Source: Polycladomyces abyssicola (GTDB lineage Bacteria > Bacillota > Bacilli > Thermoactinomycetales > JIR-001). From it: a stretch of 64,000 bases of DNA. Below, piece after piece: positions 31,177 through 42,738 of the stretch; position 1 is the first letter of the stretch; the number at the start of each line of letters is the position of its first letter. The DNA is taken from contig NZ_AP024601.1 in assembly GCF_018326425.1 (NCBI RefSeq), positions 2,406,001 through 2,470,000 of the forward strand, given 5' to 3'. The notes beneath the pieces are model-generated. The model had not been told where the DNA came from. It saw only the letters and a program-made list of their open reading frames with translations, and searched no databases. The position numbers were made by a program, and so were the translations under genes.

Positions 31177-31293
31177 ATGGGCTACGGTTACGGCTATGGT
31201 TTCGGCATCGGTTTTCGCCGACTGCTGATCTTCCTGCTGGTCATCGCCACCATCTTCGTCTTCGCTGGTGTCGGCTTCGGCTACTATTGCTAA
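31177..31293 (+). CDS. YjcZ-like Gly/Tyr-rich mini-protein, copy 2
   Basis: 38 residues: MGYGYGYGFGIGFRR, hydrophobic LLIFLLVIATIFVFAGVGF, end GYYC. The layout (Gly/Tyr head, two Arg, one membrane helix) is that of YjcZ-family sporulation proteins, which are abundant in coats or late sporangia of Bacilli. AAAAGGGG precedes the ATG by 9 nt. It is the first intact copy in a tandem series. Confidence 0.75.
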   Translation: MGYGYGYGFGIGFRRLLIFLLVIATIFVFAGVGFGYYC

Positions 31294-31330
31294 ACAACAT
31301 TCCCTGATTCCATTGAAAGGAGGGGAGAAA

Positions 31331-31447
31331 ATGGGCTACGGCTACGGTTACGGCTACGGCTTCGGCATCGGCCTACGTCGACTGCTGATCTTCTTGCTGG
31401 TCATCGCCACCATCTTCGTCTTCGCCGGTGTCGGTTTCGGCTACTAA
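31331..31447 (+). CDS. YjcZ-like Gly/Tyr-rich mini-protein, copy 3
   Basis: 38 residues: MGYGYGYGYGFGIGLRR with an extra GY unit relative to copy 2, then LLIFLLVIATIFVFAGVGF and end GY. AAAGGAGGGG is optimally spaced. Nucleotide identity with copies 2 and 4 is very high through the membrane segment, so duplication is recent or maintained by gene conversion. Confidence 0.77.
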   Translation: MGYGYGYGYGFGIGLRRLLIFLLVIATIFVFAGVGFGY

Positions 31448-31489
31448 GGACGAAGGCATTACGAAAACTCTGTTTAAGGGGATGATCGC

Positions 31490-31606
31490 GTGAGCTACGG
31501 TTACGGTTACGGTTTCGGCATCGGTTTGCGTCGACTGCTGATCTTCCTGCTGGTCATCGCCACCATCTTCGTCTTCGCTGGCGTCGGTTTCGGTTACGGG
31601 TGGTGA
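31490..31606 (+). CDS. YjcZ-like Gly/Tyr-rich mini-protein, copy 4
   Basis: 38 residues from a GTG start with AAGGGG upstream: SYGYGYGFGIGLRR head, the same membrane helix, end GYGW. It is the last member of the array and is followed by two hairpins, the first of which is a good terminator. Confidence 0.75.
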   Translation: MSYGYGYGFGIGLRRLLIFLLVIATIFVFAGVGFGYGW

Positions 31607-35202: not shown

Positions 35203-35990
35203 CTAAGAGCGAAGCCTTTTACGAAAGAACGGGAACACCGGGAACAAAAATGCACGTTTCTTTTCCTGCGAACGTTTCACAACGCGAAACAGGGAACGGA
35301 TCTCTTTGTTTCTCGGGTCGGCTTCGACTGCCAACCGAAGGTGTTCTACGGCTTGATGAAATTCCCCCACTTGCATCAACACTTTGGCACAACGCTGGTG
35401 CAAAAGCGTGTCCCCTTCGTGATACCAGTTGGCAATTTCCAAATGCAACAATGCCTGCCGCCGCCGACCTGTCCCGGCATACACCTCCGCCAACAGGGCG
35501 TGTCCCAGGCCGTCTCGCGGATTCAACTCCAAACCGCGTAACAAATGCGATTCGGCAGCTTGCATCGTACCTTCCGTTGCGAGCAGATACCGGGCGTACT
35601 CGCGGTAAGCGGGGCTGAAATCGGGATGTTCCCGCAGGAGTTTGCGGTACATCTCTCCGGCTTCTTCCATTTTCTCCAACCGTTCAAAAATCATGGCGAG
35701 AAGCAAATGTGCTTCGGCTGATTGCGGCATCTGTTGAAGCGCTTTTTCCACCGTCTCTTTCGCCGCTTCATAGTGGCGCTTCCGATATTCCAACCAAGCC
35801 AATTCCAGATAGTGAGAGGCTTGCGGATCCGATGCGATGCGACGCAACAAACGCGCGCGGGAACGACGGTAATCAAGGGAACTCAAGAGCTTGTCCGAAG
35901 GCTGAAAAGACCAATCGGACCCCAGAGCCAGAGCTTGTCCGAAGGCTGAAAAGACCAATCGGACCCCAGAGCCGTGCCGGAGCCTGCCAT
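35203..35990 (-). pseudogene. TPR-repeat protein disrupted by a 44-bp tandem duplication
   Basis: The ATG at 35990 has an excellent GAGGAGG site but reads only 35 codons (MAGSGTALGSDWSFQPSDKL...) before a stop, because a 44-bp unit is present twice. Removing one copy leaves 744 nt, exactly 248 codons, and joins SDWSFQPSDKL to LSSLDYRRSRARLLRR. The downstream part has about four tetratricopeptide repeats (HYLELAWLEYRKRHYEAAKE, AEAHLLLAMIFERLEKMEEA, GHALLAEVYAGTGRRRQALL, AKVLMQVGEFHQAVEHLRLA) and a basic tail. TPRs mediate protein contacts; the partner is unknown. The promoter GTGACA-N17-TACAAT lies about 90 bp upstream of the ATG. Confidence 0.75.
35886..35973. repeat. Perfect 44-bp direct tandem duplication
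   Basis: Copies at 35886-35929 and 35930-35973 are identical over 44 bp. Each unit contains a short inverted pair TCCGA/TCGGA. The unit length is not a multiple of three, so copy number switches the frame of the TPR gene. Confidence 0.95.
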
Positions 35991-36130
35991 CAAAGATTCC
36001 TCCTCTTCCCTTTTTCTGCTCGATCCGAAGTATTTCACACCTATACCGATCACAACCGTGCCACGGAAATAACGCTTTGATTGTATCGTATTCGACAAAT
36101 CTTGTCACGGTTTTTCGACAAATTTTTCAC

Positions 36131-36177: not shown

Positions 36178-36702
36178 TTACGTTGCGGATGATACGTTGG
36201 TGATGTGCTTCTGCATCCGCACCCGCGTGATGTAGTCCGTCTCGTAATATTCCAGTTCATCACGAAGCTGCTCAAAGATTTTGGATAGTGTCAGCACGAG
36301 CTGCCTAAGCGACTCCGCCGGTTTCCTGCGAAACGAAATCGCGTCCATGCTGGTGTAGCAGTACCGTCCGTCCTCTTCGTACACCTCGTTCCGGGGATAG
36401 TAGAAATTGTACACACATGTGTGCACAATTTCGCTGAGGACTTTTTCCGCGAAATCCTGATTAAACTTGGCACGACGGAGAACGAGGCTGACCTTCTCAT
36501 AACCGATTTCGCAGGCTACGCTCAGGTGCCGGAGATCACTCAGAAATTCCCGGTAATATTCCTCCATCCCCTCTCGGTCATCGGTCTCTTCCAATAGCTG
36601 CGGAACACTGGTGTAGTTCAGAAAGGACTCCAACATCGTCTTGGCTTCTTTCAGTTTTTCGCGAGTCAACACACACAACTCTTTGGTCTGCTCGGCAGGC
36701 AT
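36178..36702 (-). CDS. ypuI: YpuI-like DUF3907 protein
   Basis: 174 residues. The C-terminal half, AEKVLSEIVHTCVYNFYYPR through YTSMDAISFRRK to LRDELEYYETDY, matches the YpuI/DUF3907 pattern, including the strongly conserved ELEYYETDY end. It is an uncharacterised, cytosolic, mostly helical protein of Bacillales. The ATG at 36702 is best supported by homology; AAGGGGG lies 12-13 nt upstream, a little far. A TGT-TATACT extended -10 lies near 36760. It is divergent from the MFS gene. Confidence 0.82.
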   Translation of the reverse strand: MPAEQTKELCVLTREKLKEAKTMLESFLNYTSVPQLLEETDDREGMEEYYREFLSDLRHLSVACEIGYEKVSLVLRRAKFNQDFAEKVLSEIVHTCVYNFYYPRNEVYEEDGRYCYTSMDAISFRRKPAESLRQLVLTLSKIFEQLRDELEYYETDYITRVRMQKHITNVSSAT

Positions 36703-36956
36703 GCTGTTGCGAGTACCCCCTTGAAGAATCATCCATATCGTTGGCTTCACGTTAAGTATAACATGTTTGGGGTGACAACAGACAGCGGAATCCATCACCA
36801 GAAGGTTCATCCCCAACCATGGCACCAGCGCGCAAGCCAGAGTCAGGACTGATCTGAAATGTTATTTTTAAAATATTGCTAATATAATGCTCCAAAATTG
36901 ATACAATGGGATAGGAAAACAGGGTGATCTCATTTTTGATGATAAAGGAGCTTACG

Positions 36957-38212
36957 ATGAAAGTCCATCTGTTCTTGCCACTAAAAGTCCGTCCGTTTCG
37001 TCTGTTGATCACCGGTCAAATTTTTTCCGATTTGGGCAATTGGCTGGATTTCATCGCATTAAACGCCATTTTGGTGTTTCAGTGGAAAATGGGTCCGGGT
37101 GAAATGGGGATATTTCTCGTCGTCTTCGGGTTGCCGTGGATCGTGTGCGGTCCGCTCCTGGCGGTTTGGAGTGATCGCTATCCGCGCAAGACGATCATGA
37201 TCGGCTGTGACATCGCCCGGGTGTTGCTCGTATTGGGACTGTATTGGGTGGACAACTTCTACTTGCTCCTGTTGCTTGTCTTTTTGAAGGGTACATGCGG
37301 CGCGATGTTCGATCCCGTACGGCAAGGGATGATCCGCAGCACCGTTCCGGCAGATCTGCTGAAACAAGCCAACGCACTCAGTCAGACGGTGCTGACCGCC
37401 ACCAAAGTGCTCGGCCCCTCACTGGGAGCGGCACTTTTGACGGTGACATCCCCACAAACGGCCTTTTTGGTGGAAGCGGTCGGTTTCGTATTATCCGCTT
37501 GTTCCTTGATATTTTTACCGAAAACAAGATCGGTACTATCAGAAGGAAAACACAACCCTTTTGGTTGGAATTTCGAGAGGGAGTCGGTCACATCGGAGCA
37601 CGGCCTGTTCTCCTGTTCGGGCTGATTTGTTCCTCCATCGCCATGTGGATGATCTTTTTGATCGAGGGCTTGGGTTCCGTTTGGACCCGCTTGATGGGAA
37701 TGCCTTCCACCGCCTACGGTACGCTGGTGGCCGTGGTCGGTTGCGGCAACGTGATCGGTTCGATCGTGGTGGGAGCATGGCGAAAAGCCCCGCACCCGTT
37801 GGGATTGATCCTGGGTTCCCATGTGGTGTTCGGGCTGTTGACAATGATCAACGGACTGGGAAGTTTGGGATGGATGCCGCGGGATTTGGTTCTGTATGCC
37901 TGTGTGTGGGGCATCGTCGGTTTTGCTAACCCATTTTCCACGGTTTCCTTCAGTACCCTGTTGCAGACCGAAACCCCGGAACACTTGATGGGACGGGTGA
38001 GCAGTGTTGTCACCGCCGTACAAAACGCCGCCATCCTGATCGCCCCGATGGTCGGCGCTTGGCTGGCCGAGTGGATCGGAGTGAGCCAGGTGTTTATCGT
38101 CTCCGGTGCCGGATTGATCCTTTACGCTATGATCATGAGCATCCGCCTGCCCCGGTTGTTGCGCTCGGCGAAGTCGGTTCCCGCCGATCGGCAGCATTCG
38201 TTTCCGTTTTGA
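36957..38212 (+). pseudogene. MFS transporter gene with a frameshift
   Basis: The ATG at 36957 (AAAGGAGC upstream) opens a 12-helix MFS protein (PFRLLITGQIFSDLGNWLDF, GPLLAVWSDRYPRKTIMIG, LVFLKGTCGAMFDPVRQGMI). After GKHNPF, near 37550, the frame runs out of homology and stops at 37625. The next frame continues WLEFREGVGHIGARPVLLFG through the remaining helices to 38212. Adding one base near 37540-37560, in an A/C/T-run area, would give one protein of about 418 residues, like EntS or macrolide-type exporters. It may be a real lesion or a sequencing error. Confidence 0.8.
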
Positions 38213-38306
38213 TGACCTCTTACATTTAAAACATTTTTCGTAGTGATTTTCATTTCACCGTGTTGTACCATGAAACTTGTCAACTCAACCCATCCGAGGT
38301 GATCAT

Positions 38307-39674
38307 GTGAAGAAGTGGTTGTCCCTTGTCATTATTTTTTCCATTTTGTTGCTTTCGGGATGCTCTTTGTTGATACAAGCGGCACAGACAACCAAACCTG
38401 AACAGACAAAACCTCAATCCAAAAAAACAGAACCGCTGAAACCTTGGCAAAAAATCAAGCCCGAAGATTTCCGCGCAGCCACAACGCCGGAAGGAATGGT
38501 CAAGGAAGGGCCGGGCAAATATGCGGGTTACGACTATGACGCGGCGGCCCTGCAAAGTGAATTGGCCAAATTGCCGAACGGCCTTTCCACCGATCAATTG
38601 TACAACCAGCTGATCTATTATTTGGCTGAGAATTACAAACCGATCGTGGACAAGCTGGACCACTTCGACACTTCCTTCGAAATCCGCAACAAAACACCGG
38701 ATGACTTGCGCGTTCACGCCCCGGACGCCAAAAAGCTGAATGTCGCCATCCTACTGGACGCGAGCGGCAGCATGGCCGGGAAAATCGACGGGAAAACCAA
38801 AATGGAACAGGCCAAAGAGGCGATCGGGCGGTTTGCCTCCCAACTTCCGGACGGGACCACCGTTTCCCTGCGGGTCTATGGCCACAAAGGGACCAACCAA
38901 GCCAAGGACAAAGCGATGTCCTGCAAGAGCAGCGAAGTGGTGTATCCCTCCGGTGCCTATGATGCCACCCGATTCCAACAAGCGCTGGGACGTTTCCGTC
39001 CGGCGGGATGGACACCGCTCGCCAAGGCCATCCGTGATGCCCAATCGGACTTGGTCGCAAACAACGGCCCCAACACGGAGAATATCGTCTACATCGTCAG
39101 CGACGGCATCGAAACCTGTGGCGGCGATCCGGTGGCTGCGGCACAGTCTTTGCATCAATCCAACATCCATGCAGTGGTCAACATTATCGGATTTGATGTG
39201 GACAATGCCGGGCAAAAAGCGTTGCAGGCGGTGGCCGACGCCGGTGGCGGGGAATTTTCGACAGCCCAGGATCAACAGGAGCTGGAGATGTATCTGGAAC
39301 AGCAATACACCCAAATGTGGTTGGCCTGGACCAACTGGGGCAACACCAACTGGATTGATGTCAACAATCAATACAATGCCAAATGGCAACGGCTGCAGTT
39401 GATTGCCGGTTTTTCCGGCAGTCAGTTCGCCAACAAACTGCAGACAGAGCGACAGCATCTTGAAAGCGCACTGTCATTTCTGGATCGCAAAAACAAACTG
39501 CAGGACGGTCAGTATTCCGACCTGAGCAGCAAAATCAGCGATCGATACAATGCGTTGGAAGCCTACCGACAACAGCGGTATGATGAGCTGGACCAAATCT
39601 TGACCGAGAAAAGAGACAAGCTGCAGGCATTTATCGAACAGAAACAGCAGGAGATGCAAAAGAAATACGAATGA
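38307..39674 (+). CDS. VWA-domain lipoprotein
   Basis: 455 residues. The GTG at 38307 follows GAGGTG; WLSLVIIFSILLLSGC is a lipoprotein signal with Cys anchor. A Lys/Pro-rich linker precedes the von Willebrand A domain (about residues 145-330) with the MIDAS motif LLDASGSMAG, later GGWTPL-type Thr and SDGIETCGG Asp. The C-terminal third is a Gln/Lys-rich coiled coil (RQQRYDELDQILTEKRDKL). It resembles YwmC/YwmD-type exported VWA proteins of Bacillus. It is probably metal-dependent in adhesion or assembly at the membrane surface; the partner is unknown. Confidence 0.85.
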   Translation: MKKWLSLVIIFSILLLSGCSLLIQAAQTTKPEQTKPQSKKTEPLKPWQKIKPEDFRAATTPEGMVKEGPGKYAGYDYDAAALQSELAKLPNGLSTDQLYNQLIYYLAENYKPIVDKLDHFDTSFEIRNKTPDDLRVHAPDAKKLNVAILLDASGSMAGKIDGKTKMEQAKEAIGRFASQLPDGTTVSLRVYGHKGTNQAKDKAMSCKSSEVVYPSGAYDATRFQQALGRFRPAGWTPLAKAIRDAQSDLVANNGPNTENIVYIVSDGIETCGGDPVAAAQSLHQSNIHAVVNIIGFDVDNAGQKALQAVADAGGGEFSTAQDQQELEMYLEQQYTQMWLAWTNWGNTNWIDVNNQYNAKWQRLQLIAGFSGSQFANKLQTERQHLESALSFLDRKNKLQDGQYSDLSSKISDRYNALEAYRQQRYDELDQILTEKRDKLQAFIEQKQQEMQKKYE

Positions 39675-40842: not shown

Positions 40843-42003
40843 TCATTCCTCCAGCTTCGGCCACGGTGGCTGGGGCATGTTTCGTTCCCGGATCCGGTGG
40901 ATTTCCGGTGCAAGGTCATAGTCAACCCGATATTGCTCAAAGCTCCATATACCGTCCTGCCACTCGGCGACCGTGTAACAGGCGATCGGCCGTCCGTCCC
41001 CGGGGATGGAAACAGAAGAAACGTTCAACACGATCCGATCTCCCAACAACGTTACGGAAGGCTGATGCCAATGACCGGCAGCGATGACGCGTGCTTCCGT
41101 TTCACCGTAATATTTTTCACCTTCCGTTCTCAACAGATCCGGCCGGGGTAACGGTCGGTGCGTGGATACCGGGGAAGCGTGGCATACCAACAAGGCTTGA
41201 CCGGGAGCGGGATCAAATGTCAGCGTCACCGGCAACGAGCGGAGGAAGTCCAGCCGTTCTTCACCCAACCGTCTTCGATTCCACTCCAGATGGGCACGAA
41301 ACCGTTCCATCCGTACCGGATCGGAAGCGGCTTCCGTTTCGATCGGCAGTTGTCCTGTCACCATATCATCGCAATTGCCGCGCACCATCGCGACGCCTTC
41401 CGCCCGTAAGAGATCCACTACTTCCTCCGGGGAAGGACCCAGAAAGACGATATCTCCCGCACACACCACGGCATCAAACGGTCCCCGCTCACGGATTTCC
41501 CGTAACACCGCCTTCAGGGCCGTTACGTTTCCGTGAATGTCGGAAAACAGGGCGATTCGCATGTTTCTCTCCTCCTTTGCTTTCATCCGATATTTGATCT
41601 CCGTTTCCCCCACAATGTAAAACCCCAGTCGCTCGTACAAACGTCGGGCGGGGTTCATTTTGAGCACCTGCAGTGTGACAGCCGCCCCCTGCTGGTACGC
41701 TTCCTCCAGCAACTGCCGGATCAGTGTCGTGCCGATCCCGCGGTTTTGGAAGATGGGCAACAGCTCGATATGACGCAGATCCCACTCATCCTCCCGACGA
41801 TCCACAGCGAAAACACCGGCAGGATGTCCGTCCACCTCGATGATCTGATCCACTCCGGGTTGGAATTTCCGTTTCATGTCCGCCCGTTCGGCGGCATCAT
41901 CCCATCCGCGCAAACGCTCCACGTACCGACGCATGTTAGTTTTGTTCAGCGCAAACACAAATTCGAAATCTGCGTCCGTGGACGGACGCAATCGCACCTT
42001 CAT
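40843..42003 (-). CDS. GNAT acetyltransferase fused in frame to a calcineurin-like phosphoesterase
   Basis: 386 residues. Residues 1-140 are a GNAT acetyltransferase (acetyl-CoA loop LPIFQNRGIGTTLIRQLLE, MNPARRLYERLGFYIVGE). There is no stop before residue 148, where MRIALFSDIHGNVTALKAVL begins a metallophosphoesterase (VVCAGDIVFLG, MVRGNCDDM, LLVCHAS, VIAAGHWHQPS). The second part has its own AAGGAGGAG site and ATG at 41562, so it may also be made alone (about 239 residues). The first ATG (42003) overlaps the stop of the preceding gene (ATGA). The YfcE/YmdB-like phosphoesterase substrate is unknown. Confidence 0.82.
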   Translation of the reverse strand: MKVRLRPSTDADFEFVFALNKTNMRRYVERLRGWDDAAERADMKRKFQPGVDQIIEVDGHPAGVFAVDRREDEWDLRHIELLPIFQNRGIGTTLIRQLLEEAYQQGAAVTLQVLKMNPARRLYERLGFYIVGETEIKYRMKAKEERNMRIALFSDIHGNVTALKAVLREIRERGPFDAVVCAGDIVFLGPSPEEVVDLLRAEGVAMVRGNCDDMVTGQLPIETEAASDPVRMERFRAHLEWNRRRLGEERLDFLRSLPVTLTFDPAPGQALLVCHASPVSTHRPLPRPDLLRTEGEKYYGETEARVIAAGHWHQPSVTLLGDRIVLNVSSVSIPGDGRPIACYTVAEWQDGIWSFEQYRVDYDLAPEIHRIRERNMPQPPWPKLEE

Positions 42004-42738
42004 ACCAGCCATCCTCCGGCTTTGAGATAAGCCGCACTCCGTTTCACTTCCTCCATTGGGGAAACTCCTTCCCTGCACGCATCCTGTTCCACGATAAACC
42101 ATTCTGTCCCCGCTTCCGTCCCGGCCGACATCACCGCCCCCACATCGAGTAGGCCGGAACCGACGGCGGCGAAAAAGCGATCAGGTGCATCCTCCATATC
42201 TTTCAGATGTATGAACGGTACGCGACCGGCATAGCGATGGATATACTCGACTTCCGAAATTCCCGCTTTTTTCAACCAATAAACATCCAGTTCAACCTTC
42301 ACCCCTGCCTCCGACCGGTCTGCCTTGCACCCGCTGTTCCAGTTCAAAGTCGTGGTGATGATAACCAAACCGCAAACCGTGCACCCGACATACACGGGCA
42401 ATGTCAATCAGATCGCGAACCAACGCTTGCACCTCATCCATTTGGGTGAACCGCCCCGGCTCCACCCACGGGCAAATCAGCGTGTCGCATTCGATGGTCT
42501 GATGAAAGGAAATCACGTCCGGGAGAGATGTTTTCAGCTCCTGCAATCCCACATGACTGGCGATCGGATGCAATCCGGTCTCCTGCAGCAACTGCCGGAT
42601 CTCCTCTGCGCATTTTCCGTAAAATCCGGCAAATTCCACCCCGCGGTAACCCATCCGGGCAATGGTGTGCAGCACGGTCGCCATATCCTGTCCCATTTCC
42701 CGCCGCAAGGTGTACAGTTGAAGTCCGATTTGAGGCAT
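42000..42738 (-). pseudogene. Sugar phosphate isomerase/epimerase-type gene, frameshifted
   Basis: The ATG at 42738 (AGAGGGGGG upstream) reads MPQIGLQLYTLRREMGQDMA, GYRGVEFAGFYGK, YHHHDFELEQRVQGRP and then leaves the family pattern and stops near 42292. The next frame resumes AGVKVELDVYWLKKAGISEV, FIHLKDMED and runs to 42000. Compared with the family, about ten residues are missing at the junction (near 42300), so a small deletion not divisible by three is likely. The remainder matches TIM-barrel isomerases like the one at 4523. Its stop overlaps the GNAT start. Confidence 0.75.

Follow-up and report, generated by a model that had tools for sequence, protein, structure and literature searches.

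Simple-sequence-repeat contingency loci consist of many short units, and a change in unit number shifts the reading frame. The locus described here, in Polycladomyces abyssicola JIR-001, shares this frame-shifting property, but has two long units that arose in a single lineage. In pneumococcus, capsule phase variants of serotypes 3, 8 and 37 arise by spontaneous intragenic duplication, including in cap8E and tts (Waite et al. 2001, 2003, as cited in PMC4243769). Like these variants, the JIR-001 locus carries a perfect duplication that disrupts an ORF, and a return to one copy would repair the gene; reversion has been observed in pneumococcus and affects a surface capsule, whereas here a single genome and a generic TPR gene are concerned. 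Tandem units of tens of bases also make up the 57-bp dop repeat of M. tuberculosis (PMC12817950), although the M. tuberculosis repeats are located in promoters and vary in number across lineages and within populations; the duplication considered here lies in coding sequence and is known from a single genome. More generally, RecA-independent replication misalignment accounts for most of the loss and gain of direct repeats shorter than approximately 200 bp (reviewed in PMC8047081). The JIR-001 duplication also resembles an ordinary tandem-duplication frameshift of the kind associated with gene decay, being derived, unique, apparently recent and accompanied by other frame breaks nearby, and nothing tested sets it apart from such a mutation.

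We analysed a 64,000-nucleotide stretch of the JIR-001 chromosome (hereafter the window, to which all coordinates refer), in which a TPR gene runs from its native ATG to its stop on the minus strand (35203-35990) and is interrupted by the duplication. The perfect 44-bp tandem duplication reported in the preliminary description of this DNA was borne out by repeat search, with the ATG-side unit (35930-35973, minus strand; first in the reading direction, and also supported by relatives with one unit) and the TPR-core-side unit (35886-35929, minus strand; second in the reading direction) being 100% identical and forming exactly 2.0 copies. The expected chance occurrence of such a pair is negligible, at approximately 1e-20 per genome. 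A search for further copies, as had been proposed, recovered just these two occurrences of the unit from the whole single-contig 3,197,230-bp genome with three mismatches allowed, and no other perfect tandem duplication with a period >24 bp was present within 464 kb of the genome (the 64-kb window plus 20 other stretches). We rejected the idea that the repeat forms a structured RNA element, as the RNA folded no better than shuffled sequences (z = +1.55), and no Rfam family matched there. Elsewhere in the window, an imperfect 160-bp tandem repeat (31181-31597; 2.7 copies, rich in GGCTAC/GGTTAC) adjoins two Myb-like genes, and this region is also repetitive in both congeners.

The native ATG is located at 35990-35988 on the minus strand and is directly preceded by GAAGAGGAGGAATCTTTG, which sequence inspection identifies as its ribosome-binding region (35991-36008, minus strand). 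With two units present, translation from this ATG yields a truncated 35-codon ORF (35883-35990, minus strand) ending at TGA 35885-35883. Removal of one unit leaves 788 - 44 = 744 nt, equivalent to 248 codons including the stop and a 247-aa protein. The intact orthologues of both congeners (L005 and L006) have exactly this length of 247 aa. Unit number thus alters the reading frame as originally claimed, since 44 is not a multiple of three and the relatives agree. A 301-aa ORF with a GTG start codon (35203-36108) is open across both units and was rejected as a real gene because the GTG falls within the predicted -35 box of a promoter-like site (GTGACA-17-TACAAT; 36080-36108, minus strand), the hexamers of which are conserved in both congeners.

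The other two genomes of the genus (G001 and G002) each contain one 44-bp unit and an intact 247-aa gene, with the same ATG and the same ribosome site as P. abyssicola. This makes the duplication a derived feature of the P. abyssicola lineage, relative to close relatives in which the gene is intact. Use of this ATG by both sister species also substantiates its earlier designation, together with the strong ribosome site, as the true start; neither congener starts downstream of the repeat, and the intact gene of the one-unit species indicates that the duplication alone parts the ATG from the TPR frame. No tandem array was found at the duplication site in any of the 29 homologous loci examined, nor was a tandem duplication detected within the gene at any of these (0/29), the only array being a 14-bp intergenic pair at L009. 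Most other genomes of the order contain homologues with approximately 35-54% identity, often flanked by DUF3907/ypuI on the upstream side and by nagA or DUF309 genes on the downstream side, and in many of those with an assignable start a conserved YRRxRA-like motif follows approximately 20 residues after it. Scans of contigs with the protein and with a 50-bp pattern returned no match, although very near records may be left out of these. Assignment to the TPR proteins held, with profile matches exceeding curated cut-offs and a helical-repeat fold in the predicted structure, and a PDB sequence search with the protein returned generic TPR matches only. Judged from sequence comparison, this is an order-wide conserved, syntenic and generic TPR gene.

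Two further genes of the window stood out in the comparison of the three genomes. The DUF3907 (ypuI) gene (36178-36699, minus strand) showed a dS of 0.09 to G002 and 0.43 to G001, with neighbouring genes at approximately 0.2-0.4, a contrast for which local recombination is a possible explanation. A VWA-domain gene with an apparent lipoprotein signal (38277-39674, plus strand) was present in the window and in G001, and was mostly missing at this location in G002.

We consider it reasonably probable that the locus represents a genuine, recent 44-bp tandem duplication in the P. abyssicola JIR-001 lineage, and that it is a potentially reversible mutation rather than an evolved switch. A recent lesion, put forward in the preliminary description as an alternative, is accordingly the best reading, given single-unit sister species and an undecayed frame. 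Under this scenario, the conserved TPR gene would be interrupted just after its start, with the native ATG frame ending after 35 codons, and the full-length protein would be largely lost, perhaps with residual product from weak in-frame TTG starts. Replication misalignment could occasionally delete one copy and restore the frame. Such restoration by copy loss, at some low rate, is a property of all tandem duplications of this kind and size.

Outside the duplication, the TPR frame is open, shares 94-95% protein identity with the relatives and has a pairwise dN/dS of 0.08-0.14, with purifying selection acting on the intact TPR core. Changes on the P. abyssicola lineage (16 synonymous, 6 non-synonymous) did not differ from those in the relatives (26 and 7, respectively; Fisher p = 0.75), and a rough Poisson bound places any unconstrained period at approximately 15-20% of the lineage or less. 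The undecayed frame points to a lesion of recent date or to a product that continues to be made, and is equally compatible with a still-expressed gene. This second option, in which the duplication is real and the gene is not off, appears rather unlikely overall. It proposes re-initiation at an in-frame TTG overlapping the new stop (35884-35886, minus strand), or a start at an in-frame TTG within the first unit (35956-35958, minus strand; 251 aa), both putative weak sites, leaving a TPR protein with only its disordered N-terminus missing or replaced. Consistent with this, the TPR core is undecayed and the final two bases of TTG 35886 open the new stop codon (TTGA), a stop created by a G-to-A change at 35883 that is specific to the window. 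Structure prediction for the intact G001 orthologue shows disorder over residues 1-16 and a first helix starting at 23; re-initiation at TTG 35886 would start the protein at residue 21. However, TTG is a poor start codon, and ribosome-site pairing is weak at TTG 35886 (-3.2 kcal/mol) and TTG 35958 (-6.0 kcal/mol) compared with the native site (-13.3 kcal/mol). Expression is thus likely to be much reduced, though not certainly absent. The earlier statement that the gene is switched off stands insofar as the strong start is disconnected and a stop follows after 35 codons, and goes too far insofar as weak in-frame TTG starts remain.

With respect to the origin of the duplication, its junction shows no microhomology, a signature left by template switching, break repair and assembly overlap alike. 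The ancestral sequence contains a GCTCT direct repeat, with two copies 38 bp apart, and a one-step slip on this repeat was rejected because it would duplicate 38 bp and not 44. The Unicycler assembly of the JIR-001T chromosome combined ONT Flongle reads with NovaSeq paired 150-bp reads (PMC8210696; DRX274628, DRX274629), and an artefact would require that pieces overlapping by 44 bp were joined unmerged in a strain that truly has a single unit. We judge this improbable. The exactness of the copy, the lack of microhomology, the single unit in both relatives and the low yield of the Flongle long reads in the hybrid assembly all point in its direction, yet an array of 88 bp fits within single 150-bp Illumina reads and sits in unique sequence, making an assembly error less likely. 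Furthermore, no similar perfect duplication was found in 464 kb of the assembly and, as weak evidence, the substitution at 35883, specific to the window, is situated three bases outside the array. A genuine duplication would most plausibly have arisen by replication template switching or break repair, rather than by a simple slip between pre-existing repeats.

Frame breaks were also observed in two further genes of the window. An MFS transporter gene (36924-38212, plus strand) has a window-specific 4-bp deletion near 37544, approximately 1.6 kb from the TPR gene, and forms one intact ORF of approximately 420-430 aa in both congeners. A xylose-isomerase-like TIM-barrel gene (42003-42738, minus strand) is split between two frames near 42315 and is whole in both congeners. 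Neither break involves repeats, and both occurred in the same lineage as the 44-bp duplication.

Taken as an evolved switch, in which selection maintains gain and loss of the 44-bp unit as a toggle of the TPR gene, the phase-variation-like design originally suggested is highly improbable. In its favour, 44 is not a multiple of three, the start codon is closely followed by the array, tandem repeats of similar size are variable in number elsewhere among bacteria (57-bp dop repeat of M. tuberculosis, PMC12817950), and pneumococcal capsule can be lost reversibly through intragenic duplication (PMC4243769). Against it, the ancestor was single-unit, neither congener nor any of the 29 homologous loci has a tandem array there, the gene is a conserved, syntenic and generic one, there are two copies only with no second state observed in one P. 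abyssicola genome, and neighbouring genes of the same lineage carry ordinary frame-breaking indels. We give equally little credence to a mixed population of this thermophilic filamentous bacterium toggling an order-wide TPR protein between high and low expression by the 44-bp unit, with the window-specific TTGA overlap sustaining weak basal expression when two units are present.

Beyond the two points that follow, the duplication is an ordinary tandem-duplication mutation. If real, it would deprive the type strain of the genus, wholly or largely, of a TPR protein retained across most of the order, which matters wherever JIR-001 serves as a reference strain. Ultimately, the strain would then represent a natural knock-down, in which loss or reversion could help to reveal the role of an uncharacterised TPR gene.
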